A stretch of 64,000 bases of DNA from contig ONOE01000004.1 of assembly GCA_900319365.1 (NCBI GenBank), positions 1 to 64,000 on the forward strand, read 5' to 3'. This DNA comes from an uncultured bacterium (GTDB lineage: Bacteria > Cyanobacteriota > Vampirovibrionia > Gastranaerophilales > Gastranaerophilaceae). A program made the position numbers and the translations under genes. Positions 28,337 through 32,111 of the stretch are shown in pieces. The stretch's first letter is position 1. Every line of letters begins with the position of its first letter. The notes beneath the pieces were generated by a model. The model was not told the origin of the DNA. It did no database searches and saw only the letters and a list, made by a program, of their open reading frames with translations.

Positions 28337-29041
28337 CTAATCAAATTTCAAACCGTTATTTCTGATGTATTCTTCATACAAATCAAAACGGCGTAATTTG
28401 GTTCTTGTTATTTGCTGCTGCAAACGAAACTGCGCAATCTCTTTATGATTGCCGTTTAGCAATACATCAGGAACTTTAAGCCCTCTGTATTCACGAGGTT
28501 TTGTGTACTGCGGATATTCAAGAAGTCCGTTGGAAAAACTATCTTCCTGCGCAGATTCTATTTTCCCCAAAGTTCCGTCTAATTTTCTGCTCACGGCATC
28601 AATCAGGCACAATGCAGGCAATTCCCCGCCCGTTAAAACAAAATCTCCGATTGAAATTTCTTTGGGCTTTATTATATCTCTTATTCTTTCGTCAAACCCT
28701 TCATAATGCCCGCAAAGCATAATGATTTGTTCATTTTTTGCCAAATCACACACAAGAGTTTCATCAAGCGGTTCACCCTGCGGAGAAAGCATTACCGTAA
28801 CGGATTTTTCTTTCTTTTCTATGCTTTCATACGCATCGACATAAGGCTGAGGCGCAAGAACCATCCCCGCTCCGCCGCCGTATGGAGTATCATCGACCTT
28901 TTTATGCTTATCGAGCGTAAAATCTCTCGGGTTTACCGTATGCAATTCAAAAACGCCCGCATCTTTTGCACGTTTCATAATGCTGTATTCGCAATAATCT
29001 TCAATAATATCAGGGAAAAGTGTCAATACATCAAAAATCAT
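28337..29041 (-). CDS. trmD: tRNA (guanine-N1)-methyltransferase
   Basis: Methylates G37 of tRNAs reading CNN codons, preventing +1 frameshifting. SPOUT-fold motifs are clear: PYGGGAGMVLAPQP near 51-64, LCGHYEGFDERI near 109-120 and EISIGDFVLTGGELPALCLI near 128-147, which form the trefoil-knot SAM site. The length of 234 residues is typical. The start overlaps the rimM stop as ATGA, a common rimM-trmD arrangement. Confidence 0.96.
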   Translation of the reverse strand: MIFDVLTLFPDIIEDYCEYSIMKRAKDAGVFELHTVNPRDFTLDKHKKVDDTPYGGGAGMVLAPQPYVDAYESIEKKEKSVTVMLSPQGEPLDETLVCDLAKNEQIIMLCGHYEGFDERIRDIIKPKEISIGDFVLTGGELPALCLIDAVSRKLDGTLGKIESAQEDSFSNGLLEYPQYTKPREYRGLKVPDVLLNGNHKEIAQFRLQQQITRTKLRRFDLYEEYIRNNGLKFD

Positions 29042-29553
29042 TCCAACAAGCCCTCAATATTATTTATGTATATTTTTTTATTCTTAATATCCACATCAGG
29101 AACAATTGCTTTTACAAAAGGTATAAGGCAAATATGCTTTGTATGGGTTTTAACGGAGAGCAAATCCGTTGCTCCGTTATTTGAAACCCCAATGACAAAC
29201 CCGAGGCTTTCACCGGTTTCTTTATTAATAACACCCATCCCGACAAGTTCATCGATTAAAAACTCATCTTCATCAAGATTGTCCCTTATTGTAGATTCTT
29301 CCACAAAAAGTATTTGACCCTTTAACGGGATAATATCATTAATAGAATTAATGCCTTTGAATTTCACAATAAGAAAGTTTTTATTTGGTCTGACGGAAGA
29401 AATTTCAAATTCATTATATCGGTTGTCGTCTTTTATAAAGACCTTTTCCAAAGACATGAAAAAATCCTGTCGATTTTTAGAAAAACCGACTTTTGCTTCG
29501 CCTTTAATTCCATGAAAATTTAAAATCTTGCCGACAGAAACATATTTACTCAT
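29038..29553 (-). CDS. rimM: 16S rRNA-processing factor RimM
   Basis: Assembly factor that binds S19 and helps mature the 30S head. The N-terminal domain starts VSVGKILNFHGIKGEAKVGF, close to the family consensus GKI-x-GxHGxxGE. The C-terminal PRC-barrel has DELVGMGVINKETGESLG and a hydrophobic end. Its 171 residues are typical. It is translationally coupled to trmD downstream and lies two bases after the stop of the zinc-ribbon gene, so the three probably form one operon. Confidence 0.93.
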   Translation of the reverse strand: MSKYVSVGKILNFHGIKGEAKVGFSKNRQDFFMSLEKVFIKDDNRYNEFEISSVRPNKNFLIVKFKGINSINDIIPLKGQILFVEESTIRDNLDEDEFLIDELVGMGVINKETGESLGFVIGVSNNGATDLLSVKTHTKHICLIPFVKAIVPDVDIKNKKIYINNIEGLLE

Positions 29554-29555
29554 AA

Positions 29556-30662
29556 CTAAGCTTCTGACTCAGACTTTTTAGGTCTTCCTCTTTTCTTTTT
29601 AGGTTCTTCTGTCGGAGCCTCAGCAGCTTTTGCATCATCTGTTTCAGCAGGCTGCGGCGACGGTTTTTCTTCCGCTTTTGACTCTGCAGCTTTTTGAGCA
29701 TCTTTTTCAGCTTTTTGCTTTTTAAATTCTTCGGGAGCATCAGGTCTGTCTTGGTTCCATCTGTCAAGTCCCATTTGTTTTCTGACTAAACCGATACCGA
29801 CGTGAACCCTCCATTCATCCATTTTCAATTGAGCCGCAATAATTTTATGGCAACCTATCGGAGGCAGCGGCAACAACGGTTCATAAAGAGTTTTAATAGC
29901 ATTTAACTGATCCGGAGTAATTGCCAATTTACGTTTCGGGTACGGCAACTTCGGCAACATCATCTTTTGTCTGATTAAATTAATACCGAAAAATACTTTT
30001 CGCGGCTCCAAACCTATTTTTTCACCGATTACTTCATGAGCATCAGGGTTAGGCAGCGGCAACATTAATTTATAGAGCAATTCAATTTGTTCAAGCTGCT
30101 CTTTGCTGACTAACAACGGCTTAGGAGCTTTGTTCCTGTTATTCGGACGTCTGTTATTAAATCTGTTGTTTTGAGGACGTCTGTTATTGTAGCCGCCTTG
30201 TGTTCTGTTATTGTTATAAGGTCTGTTATTATTGTAACCGCCTTGAGTTCGATTGTTGTTATAAGATCTGTTATTGTTGTAACCGCCCTGACGATTATCC
30301 CTGTTGTATCCGCCTTGTCTGTTATCTCTTTGATAACCGCCCTGACGGTTGTTGTAATTATTCTGACGGGGTCTGTAATAACCTTGGTTATTGTTATTAT
30401 AGTTGTTATACTGTCTTGGCGGACGGGGTCTCTCGTCATCTCCGCCGGCAGAATAACTGCTGTAGAATTGAGGAGCACTCCCTGTTGAATAATTTCCCGT
30501 AGAAGAATGCTGCTGTTCGGAAGATTGCGCAGGTTTATTTTCGCCCTCCGGACTATCAATCATCATTTTCTTATCAGGATACAAACAATCGGGACAAATA
30601 ACTCTTTTGGGATTCTTAGTTTCAAACTCACGACCGCACTTAATGCATTTGTTTACATACAT
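29556..30662 (-). CDS. Zinc-ribbon, Asn/Arg/Gly-rich repeat and AT-hook protein
   Basis: No named family recognised. The 368 residues divide into: a zinc ribbon with Cys6, Cys9, Cys23 and Cys26; a low-complexity region at about 81-178 built from QGGYNNNR-type repeats rich in Asn, Arg, Gly, Tyr and Gln; two tandem approximately 56-residue helical repeats at about 182-238 and 244-299, sharing LPLP, a His-(E/K)-(V/I)-I segment and GI-x-L-(I/V)-R-(Q/K)-(Q/K)-M; an Ala/Glu/Lys region; and a C-terminal AT-hook KKRGRPKK. Such parts suggest nucleic-acid binding and possibly condensate formation. The operon position before rimM-trmD hints at an RNA or ribosome link. Function is unproven. Confidence 0.82.
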   Translation of the reverse strand: MYVNKCIKCGREFETKNPKRVICPDCLYPDKKMMIDSPEGENKPAQSSEQQHSSTGNYSTGSAPQFYSSYSAGGDDERPRPPRQYNNYNNNNQGYYRPRQNNYNNRQGGYQRDNRQGGYNRDNRQGGYNNNRSYNNNRTQGGYNNNRPYNNNRTQGGYNNRRPQNNRFNNRRPNNRNKAPKPLLVSKEQLEQIELLYKLMLPLPNPDAHEVIGEKIGLEPRKVFFGINLIRQKMMLPKLPYPKRKLAITPDQLNAIKTLYEPLLPLPPIGCHKIIAAQLKMDEWRVHVGIGLVRKQMGLDRWNQDRPDAPEEFKKQKAEKDAQKAAESKAEEKPSPQPAETDDAKAAEAPTEEPKKKRGRPKKSESEA

Positions 30663-30831
30663 AATAAAAGCCTCTTAATTAAAAAATAAAAATTCTAATA
30701 TTTCAAAAATACTAAATAAAATTCCTCTCAGTATAAATCAATTCAAAACAAAAATTCAAACTTATATGTAAATTATAACATGTTTTTAAATAAATGTAAA
30801 GCCCCCGACACAAAAACTGTTAACATTTATA

Positions 30832-31536
30832 TCAATCATTGGAGATTTTCCAGCCGTTGTTTACGGTTTTTGTAAAGCAGCCTGCCGCATAATCTACTAC
30901 TGTTTTGCCTTTTTCCCTGTGCATATTGCAATGTGAAGTTTCGTCATCCAAATCTTTTAAAAAACCGTCATTCGTAATATACATAACAAAAGTATCAACA
31001 CCTGTTATGTTAGGACTTTTTGCGCCGTTTGCATCGACTATGACTTCGGTAACTTTTGCTGTCGGATCATAATACATACAGATAGCAGCATCATTGTTCG
31101 TTTTTATGCAATAGAATTTTGACGGAATTGTACCCAAATTAACTTTTTTAGGAGTTCTGTATTTTTCTCCGACACAGGCTTTTGTTCCGCCCGTACCGCA
31201 GTTAACTTTTGAATGCCTGAAATAATTATTCAAAAAATATTGAGCGCCTTGTTTTTCGTTAGATGTTTTAACTCCCGCCGAAGTGTAATAAAAACCTCTT
31301 TCGGTATCGGTTGCTTCTTCACTAAAATCCGTAGTAATCGTATCGTTGGATCTTTCATCGGTAATAATGGATTGAACGGCATCGGTAATCAAAGAACAGG
31401 TCTTTTTCAACTGTGTTCCGTAAACTTTATTTCCGACTGTATTAAATAATATGGGTATTACAAGTACGCTTATCAACCCTACGACTGCAAGAGCACACAA
31501 AACCTCAAACAGCGTAAAGCCTTTTTTTAAAGTCAT
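30832..31536 (-). CDS. Type IV prepilin-like protein
   Basis: Pseudopilin or minor pilin. The N-terminus KKGFTLFEVLCALAVVGLIS has the class III leader: Gly before the cleavage site, N-methyl Phe, Glu5 and a 20-residue hydrophobic helix. The globular domain holds several cysteines and the segment DANGAKSPNITGVDTFVMYI, whose D-x-NG, PN, G-x-D-x-F pattern recurs in the upstream prepilin. It is 234 residues long and lies two bases after the upstream prepilin gene. It probably assembles into the pilus served by PilT. Confidence 0.88.
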   Translation of the reverse strand: MTLKKGFTLFEVLCALAVVGLISVLVIPILFNTVGNKVYGTQLKKTCSLITDAVQSIITDERSNDTITTDFSEEATDTERGFYYTSAGVKTSNEKQGAQYFLNNYFRHSKVNCGTGGTKACVGEKYRTPKKVNLGTIPSKFYCIKTNNDAAICMYYDPTAKVTEVIVDANGAKSPNITGVDTFVMYITNDGFLKDLDDETSHCNMHREKGKTVVDYAAGCFTKTVNNGWKISND

Positions 31537-31538
31537 TT

Positions 31539-32111
31539 TTAGCCTCCATTTGCAGCCGAACCGCAGCTGTTAGGAATTTTCCAATCATTTTCGGCGGTAG
31601 CTTTAAAACATTTAGCCTCATTTGTAGCAGAATCTCCAATATCCGTAACATAAGAGCAATCTTTATCAAGACTAAATTCAAACAAATCTTTGCCCGCCAT
31701 ATTCGGTCTTGTTTCGGTTCCGTTTACGTCGGTAATAAATTTAAAGCCGTCATCTGTTGTTGAAATGTATAAAACAGCACTATCGGGAAGCTGCATTGAA
31801 TAGCCTTTACCCGAAACTTCTTTACCCTCTTTCATCAATTTGAAATATTTTTTCAACGTATCATCGCTGATTGATTCATATACAGATGTTTCGTTTACGC
31901 TTGAAACATTTTCTTCTACAAGCATACGTTCACAACCGTTTGTAGCGATACCGTAAACTTTTTTAAGTTTTGCTTCCCATACATTCCTTTGATAGTTCAT
32001 CATAAGTGTAGGGATAGTCATAGCAGCAACCGTGCCGATAATTCCCAACGTGATAAGAACTTCGGCAAGAGTGAATGCACGTCTTTTATTATAACCTCTA
32101 TAACCAAACAT
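31539..32111 (-). CDS. Type IV prepilin-like protein
   Basis: First gene of a two-prepilin operon. KRRAFTLAEVLITLGIIGTV gives a short basic leader, an Ala at the position before the cleaved bond instead of the usual Gly, Glu5, and a long hydrophobic helix. The C-terminal part has DVNGTETRPNMAGKDLFEF and ends with a WKIPNSCG segment; the partner protein ends similarly with NGWKISND. Its 190 residues suit a minor pilin or pseudopilin. The -1 Ala is tolerated by some prepilin peptidases. Confidence 0.88.
   Translation of the reverse strand: MFGYRGYNKRRAFTLAEVLITLGIIGTVAAMTIPTLMMNYQRNVWEAKLKKVYGIATNGCERMLVEENVSSVNETSVYESISDDTLKKYFKLMKEGKEVSGKGYSMQLPDSAVLYISTTDDGFKFITDVNGTETRPNMAGKDLFEFSLDKDCSYVTDIGDSATNEAKCFKATAENDWKIPNSCGSAANGG

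Follow-up and report, generated by a model that had tools for sequence, protein, structure and literature searches.

In many bacteria the gene of KhpA, a KH-domain RNA-binding protein, lies between rpsP and rimM, Lsr2-like proteins are bacterial xenogeneic silencers, and tails rich in Arg, Gly and Tyr are typical of RNA-binding proteins. In prion-like domains, Tyr and Arg stickers combined with variable spacers represent an established architecture (PMC9748015), while Cbp1 and Cbp2 of Crenarchaea are CRISPR-repeat binders built of tandem helix-turn-helix (HTH) units that coat DNA into chromatin-like structures (PMC10883916).

The protein described here shares features with each of these systems. 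Its two tandem three-helix units of about 60 residues with a short basic arm between them, R53 being kept in both, recall DUX4, which was the top Foldseek hit, and the homeodomain family PF00046, the only family matched by most members. It is, however, bacterial, has G in place of W48 and L in place of N51, carries an additional zinc ribbon and a prion-like region, and most members score at or below the Pfam cut-off. Like Cbp1/Cbp2, it is a prokaryotic protein of duplicated HTH units (2lvs was Foldseek rank 7), but Cbp1 contains three such units and Cbp2 two, the likeness is structural with no sequence relation in this analysis, and to our knowledge Cbp1 has neither a ribbon nor a prion-like region. 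In one family the gene occupies the KhpA slot directly before rimM-trmD, although the protein is not homologous to KhpA, lacks a KH domain (no Pfam match to PF13083 in the protein), and is encoded elsewhere in other families. The RGR core in its basic tail and its AT-rich genome are reminiscent of AT-hook proteins and Lsr2-like silencers, yet the motif falls below the Pfam cut-off and is missing from many orthologs. Its low-complexity region shares with FUS/hnRNPA1-type domains (PMC9748015) the Tyr/Arg stickers, the polar N/Q/G spacers, a scarcity of acidic residues and the position adjacent to nucleic-acid-binding domains, whereas the protein itself is bacterial, has no RRM and is a putative condensate former.

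The gene, its operon and its distribution

In the window, that is, the whole analysed stretch of 64,000 nucleotides, the gene of a 368-aa protein is read on the minus strand from 30662 down to 29556, the coordinates given correctly by the initial annotation, and ends with a stop codon at 29556-29558. Only 2 nt separate this stop codon from the start of rimM (16S rRNA maturation factor, 29038..29553, minus strand, assigned by sequence and by its place before trmD), which overlaps by 4 bp with trmD (tRNA m1G37 methyltransferase, 28337..29041, minus strand, assigned from sequence). A likely promoter, TTTACA-17-TATAAT with an extended −10 (TG), lies at 30772..30800 on the minus strand and matches at 11 of 12 positions. 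Since this promoter-like site is located just upstream and the extended −10 is kept in most orthologs of the family, the gene is probably the first of a three-gene operon with rimM and trmD. Further upstream on the same strand there are two pilin-like genes (30832-31536 and 31539-32111; type IV prepilin, GFTL/AFTLAEVLI), which are not kept as neighbours in relatives. In codon bias the gene takes rank 31 of 53 ORFs, an average value that gives no indication of very high abundance, and the assumption of a high-abundance structural protein found no support.

Linkage to rimM-trmD was detected at 134 of the 154 loci tested, which are partly redundant, while 19 of the 20 unlinked loci came from other families and one (L125) from an unplaced family. 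The linkage is a trait of one family and not of the protein as such, thus the operon context proposed in the initial annotation was confirmed at the window locus but did not hold as a general trait. The neighbourhood differs from family to family; in the unlinked loci, the adjacent genes include, with names presumed from sequence, infC-rplT, dtd, yebC, ffh, gatB, gyrB and the serine dehydratase genes sdaAB/sdaAA, and several orthologs adjoin the latter metabolic genes. One ortholog lies next to the gene of a small protein that contains two CxxC pairs and whose tail is of RGGGGS type (L160:2932-3240, plus strand), and collagen-like (GPQGPQG) repeat proteins were seen near the ortholog of a distant genome of the class (L148).

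Of 40 relatives, 38 had a single copy of the gene, the genomes in which it was missed being less complete, and phylum-wide searches found one copy in every family-f1 genome among those listed. The species-level genome collection yielded 341 loci. By profile search, further families of the class (f43, f47 and f48) were positive with E values of 1e-56 to 1e-70, and no ortholog was found in families f8, f42 and f44-f46. The phylum-wide profile search detected no relatives in photosynthetic cyanobacteria or elsewhere in the phylum outside the class; a marginal first hit there (G043, E 0.008) vanished with the profile. Plasmids and viral contigs contained no relative in the respective searches, giving no support for a mobile or phage origin. 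The ribbon searched alone showed the same distribution as the repeats, indicating that the two travel as one protein. The composite architecture claimed initially recurs in several hundred genomes, which excludes chance as its source. The protein is unnamed and, at the curated cut-off, falls into no Pfam or NCBIfam family; in the literature searched, a limited library, neither it nor any bacterial homeodomain was described. We concluded that it represents a real, conserved, unnamed family combining known parts; new to the resources searched are the combination of parts, the near-universality across the order, and a disordered region that conserves its stickers.

Zinc ribbon, tandem HTH units and tail

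The N-terminal zinc ribbon (residues 1-34; 30561..30662, minus strand) reads MYVNKC-IKC-GREFETKNPKRVI-CPDC-LYPD and follows the pattern C-x2-C-x13-C-x2-C. The four cysteines, already recognized in the initial annotation, are at positions 6, 9, 23 and 26 and are invariant in 104 of 104 distinct orthologs, all of which also contain the motif FETKNP[KQ]R with K/Q as the sole change. The pLDDT of the ribbon was about 90 in the structure prediction, and two conserved CxxC knuckles are present, by which zinc binding is predicted. Families f42 and f46, both of which are without the present protein, encode another protein at L165, L166 and L167. Its ribbon is of a related type (CQTCxKxFEHxNPxLRDCLDC), its C-terminus is helical and conserved, and it includes low-complexity sequence, which in L167 consists of DRxER repeats. 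This ribbon was discarded because it proved part of a different protein, which is possibly a functional counterpart of the Gastranaerophilales protein. The ribbon is followed by an acidic Ser/Glu-rich linker (residues 35-77; 30432..30560, minus strand) with a pI of 4.1 and pLDDT under 50.

The helical region (pI 9.6) consists of unit 1 (residues 178-242; 29937..30131, minus strand; helices 187-200, 208-216 and 220-233) and the basic arm PKRKLA with unit 2 (residues 243-305; 29748..29936, minus strand; helices 250-263, 271-279 and 283-297). The two units are identical at 19 of 58 positions (33%). Their raw score was 99, compared with a mean of 23 (SD 4.5) for shuffled sequences (z about 17), and between their profiles hhalign gave 98.5%. 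The duplication first read as two tandem repeats of approximately 56 residues is therefore real, but its period is about 63 residues. A domain-only AlphaFold2 model built from 25 sequences (mean pLDDT 81.6) showed two three-helix HTH units, with helices at 10-23/31-39/43-56 and 73-86/94-102/106-119 in domain numbering. Structure prediction had been proposed in the initial annotation as a check on the helical unit, and in the resulting model its fold class is clear, a compact three-helix HTH of about 60 residues.

The profile search, also proposed there, pointed to homeodomains. In a scan with 24,736 Pfam families, Homeodomain (PF00046) alone matched the majority of members, namely 21 of 25 with a best E of 8.4e-7, and no other HTH family showed up among these 25. 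The window domain scored 20.9 bits against the cut-off of 22.9; L125 reached 26.3 bits, the others scored lower, and none exceeded the cut-off in the genome scan. A profile search of the PDB gave five hits, all homeodomains (E 0.05 to 1.2), while a PDB sequence search with the full-length protein returned nothing useful. The best Foldseek hits were the DUX4 double homeodomain (E 0.12, prob 0.82), Oct-1 POU and archaeal Cbp1. A second structural aligner matched homeodomains over about 57 residues (Z 5.0-5.4, rmsd 2.1-4.0) and did not separate them from other HTH or winged-helix folds. Against 12 manually entered homeodomains, hhalign scored 18.5 versus a null of 1.5 (SD 1.2, max 6.3), with a pairwise E value of 0.0015 and a probability of only 6.8%. 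The third helices read FFGINLIRQK in unit 1 and HVGIGLVRKQ in unit 2, and in the homeodomain alignment the signature W48-F49-x-N51-x-R53 is not preserved, only R53 being kept in both units. Because W48 and N51 are gone and the matches are weak, we call the repeat homeodomain-like HTH and not a proven homeodomain; full membership was weighed and is not claimed. The exact HTH family is less certain than the fold class, the homeodomain being the nearest kind by three routes, all with weak matches. Thus, the suggestion of a new or unnamed domain was right in that the family is unnamed, but the fold itself is known.

The HTH region is under strong constraint, as dN was about 0.03-0.09 where dS exceeded 1.2 or was saturated. 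Variation within it is lowest in the basic PKRK-LA arm, in the third helix of either unit and in two loops, LPLPN and LPLPPIG; mean entropy was 0.53 and 0.39 in the H3 segments and 0.64 in arm 2, compared with 1.30 in H1 of unit 1. Judged from the alignment, this pattern would fit a recognition surface for DNA, RNA or protein alike.

The charged C-terminal tail (residues 306-368; 29559..29747, minus strand) is variable among orthologs and includes the AT-hook-like KKRGRPKK (residues 356-363; 29574..29597, minus strand). The motif singled out initially is present, but it scored 14.3 bits against Pfam AT_hook, below the cut-off of 17.4, and is lost in many relatives. Among near relatives, a fetched set in which the best matches are over-represented, 85 of 89 had an RGR-type motif, compared with 2 of 15 among distant relatives, and several ORFs of about 256 aa, some of them from close relatives, stop directly after the HTH domain. 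The AT-hook-like motif is lineage-specific and is neither a defining nor an essential part of the protein.

The disordered region and the leader

Residues 78-177 (30132..30431, minus strand) comprise 34 Asn, 20 Arg, 12 Tyr, 11 Gly and 10 Gln, have a pI of 11.6, and are predicted to be disordered by low pLDDT. They form a low-complexity, N/Q/G/Y/R-rich disordered stretch and are prion-like in this sense, in agreement with the Asn/Arg/Gly/Tyr stretch of about 100 residues described initially. Codons are mixed along most of the region, although TRF still found short DNA repeats of 45 bp and 27 bp. Composition was compared over 104 distinct orthologs with a regional GC of 30-56%. The disordered region was present in all 104, with a length of 87-237 residues, even at 56% GC, and its Arg (12.4%, SD 1.6) and Tyr (8.7%, SD 1.4) contents were kept, while Asn, with a mean of 19% in near relatives, was down to 4% in the distant ones and Gly and Pro increased. 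Correlations with GC were −0.67 for Asn, +0.80 for Gly, +0.71 for Pro, −0.33 for Arg and −0.25 for Tyr. In the f43, f47 and f48 orthologs the region is a GYGPPRQQ-type sequence and the rest of the architecture is kept. Conserved stickers among drifting spacers are the pattern that would be expected of a condensate-forming prion-like domain. The predicted condensation is now better supported by this mode of evolution, in which Arg and Tyr are kept and the spacers drift with GC.

The leader contains two conserved elements. Between the promoter and the ribosome-binding site (RBS) lies the box TTTTGAATTGATTTATA (30732..30748, minus strand), a candidate operator, which is AAATCGATTT in most relatives and palindromic there; the AAATCGATTT-type core was found in 54 of 101 leaders, about 37 nt past the extended −10. 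Near-matches of TTTTGAATTGATTTATA in the genome numbered 61+47 versus 23+31 for the reversed control, and a genome-wide operator was not adopted, since AT-rich sequence could explain so mild an excess. The second element, the hyperconserved RBS-spanning motif AATTAAGAGGCTTTT (30666..30680, minus strand), is a candidate translational control site, and AATTAAGAGGCTT across the RBS was near-invariant in 61 aligned leaders. GAGGCT occurred at 84 of 808 starts with a Shine-Dalgarno-like element, 76 of the 84 belonging to this gene, a count made on loci all fetched for this gene, so that it expresses specificity among its neighbours. The genome contains exactly one exact copy of the full motif, with near-matches elsewhere only at chance level. 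GRGGC stretches related to AATTAAGAGGCTTTT were noticed upstream of the distant orthologs L026 and L143. RNAalifold found no leader RNA structure in the 61 aligned leaders, and no Rfam families were found in the window. From the conserved boxes, autoregulation at the DNA or mRNA level may reasonably be suggested.

Possible function of the protein

The explanation that we prefer, though with slightly less than even confidence, is an order-wide, single-copy, multivalent nucleic-acid-binding scaffold, directed to DNA, that would cluster bound molecules via its Arg/Tyr region. It starts from established features: a conserved architecture, an HTH fold seen in a model, and a disordered region that keeps its stickers. 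From these we infer a DNA ligand, clustering and regulation. The tandem homeodomain-like units would dock on DNA, which would be read or gripped by their third helices and by the basic PKRKLA arm that precedes unit 2, assisted in some lineages by the AT-hook-like tail. The ribbon may additionally contact nucleic acid or RNA polymerase, and the sticker region between ribbon and units would cluster the bound molecules. The resulting condensate-like nucleoprotein body would tune the transcription of probably many genes and probably of its own operon. The nearness to homeodomains by three routes, the conserved helix 3 and arm 2, the pI of 9.6 of the HTH region, its low dN relative to dS, the stable R/Y fractions and the conserved leader boxes argue for this scaffold. 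The weak homeodomain match (20.9 vs. 22.9 bits; Foldseek E 0.12) and the missing W48 and N51 argue against it, as do the translation genes common where neighbours are recognizable, which RNA fits equally. Conservation in the loops LPLPN and LPLPPIG equals that in helix 3, so that protein contacts may be the function of the conserved face. HU occurs in all 13 genomes checked and in four copies in the own genome, so there is no gap in nucleoid proteins to fill, and a gap-filling role was rejected.

DNA seems likelier than RNA as ligand of the scaffold, and we consider it possible but rather doubtful that the protein is instead an RNA-binding, RNP-body or ribosome-biogenesis factor. Here the HTH units and the ribbon would bind rRNA, tRNA or mRNA, the R/Y/G region would act as RNA chaperone or condensate former, the absent RRM and KhpA proteins would be replaced, and the RBS motif would be a site of translational autoregulation. 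No RRM protein was found in 13 Gastranaerophilales genomes (Synechococcus elongatus gave a positive match), nor was KhpA above cut-off, where only RNase-Y-sized ORFs appeared, and these absences leave room for an RNA role. The operon with rimM-trmD in one family, the proximity to infC-rplT, dtd, yebC, ffh or gatB elsewhere (names presumed from sequence), the R/G/Y-rich region and the hyperconserved RBS motif point the same way. Nevertheless, the fold is typical of DNA binding, even if some HTH/WH units, such as those of SelB (weak Foldseek hits), are able to bind RNA, the neighbourhood varies between families, with several orthologs beside sdaAB/sdaAA, and the leader has no conserved RNA structure.

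It appears unlikely that the protein is a sequence-specific transcription factor dedicated to a small number of targets, perhaps chiefly its own operon, and with the disordered region as a flexible charge-bearing linker that does not condense. Such a factor would be consistent with the tandem HTH units, with codon bias being average, with the conserved box in the leader close to the promoter and with the chance-level near-matches of the RBS motif, but a mere linker would not need a length and sticker composition held over large sequence turnover, and the gene position varies by family. As the position differs between families, rimM-trmD control cannot be the ancestral role. We regard as similarly improbable the boldest version of the scaffold, a true divergent double homeodomain joined to a FUS-like condensate region and a zinc ribbon in a bacterial core gene, that is, a counterpart of eukaryotic prion-like transcription factors which would build DNA condensates and control itself via leader DNA/RNA boxes. 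That the low-complexity region is a functionless product of AT bias or replication slippage, carried along by a useful HTH protein, is very improbable. Asn does track low GC (r = −0.67) and TRF detected short tandem DNA repeats, but the region is found in 104 of 104 distinct orthologs (87-237 residues), also at 56% GC, with Arg and Tyr kept and with mixed codons within. Slippage by itself would not preserve these two residues.

The family is not covered by Pfam or NCBIfam at cut-off, yet it is near-universal and single-copy across an order of gut bacteria, the Gastranaerophilales, which are non-photosynthetic cyanobacterial inhabitants of the gut. If the protein condensed nucleic acid, several hundred natural orthologs, in which stickers are kept while spacers drift with GC, would allow the evolution of such regions to be tested cleanly. 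A bacterial tandem homeodomain-like protein, if true, would bear on the origin of the homeodomain and on how the little-studied Gastranaerophilales organise their transcription or RNA.
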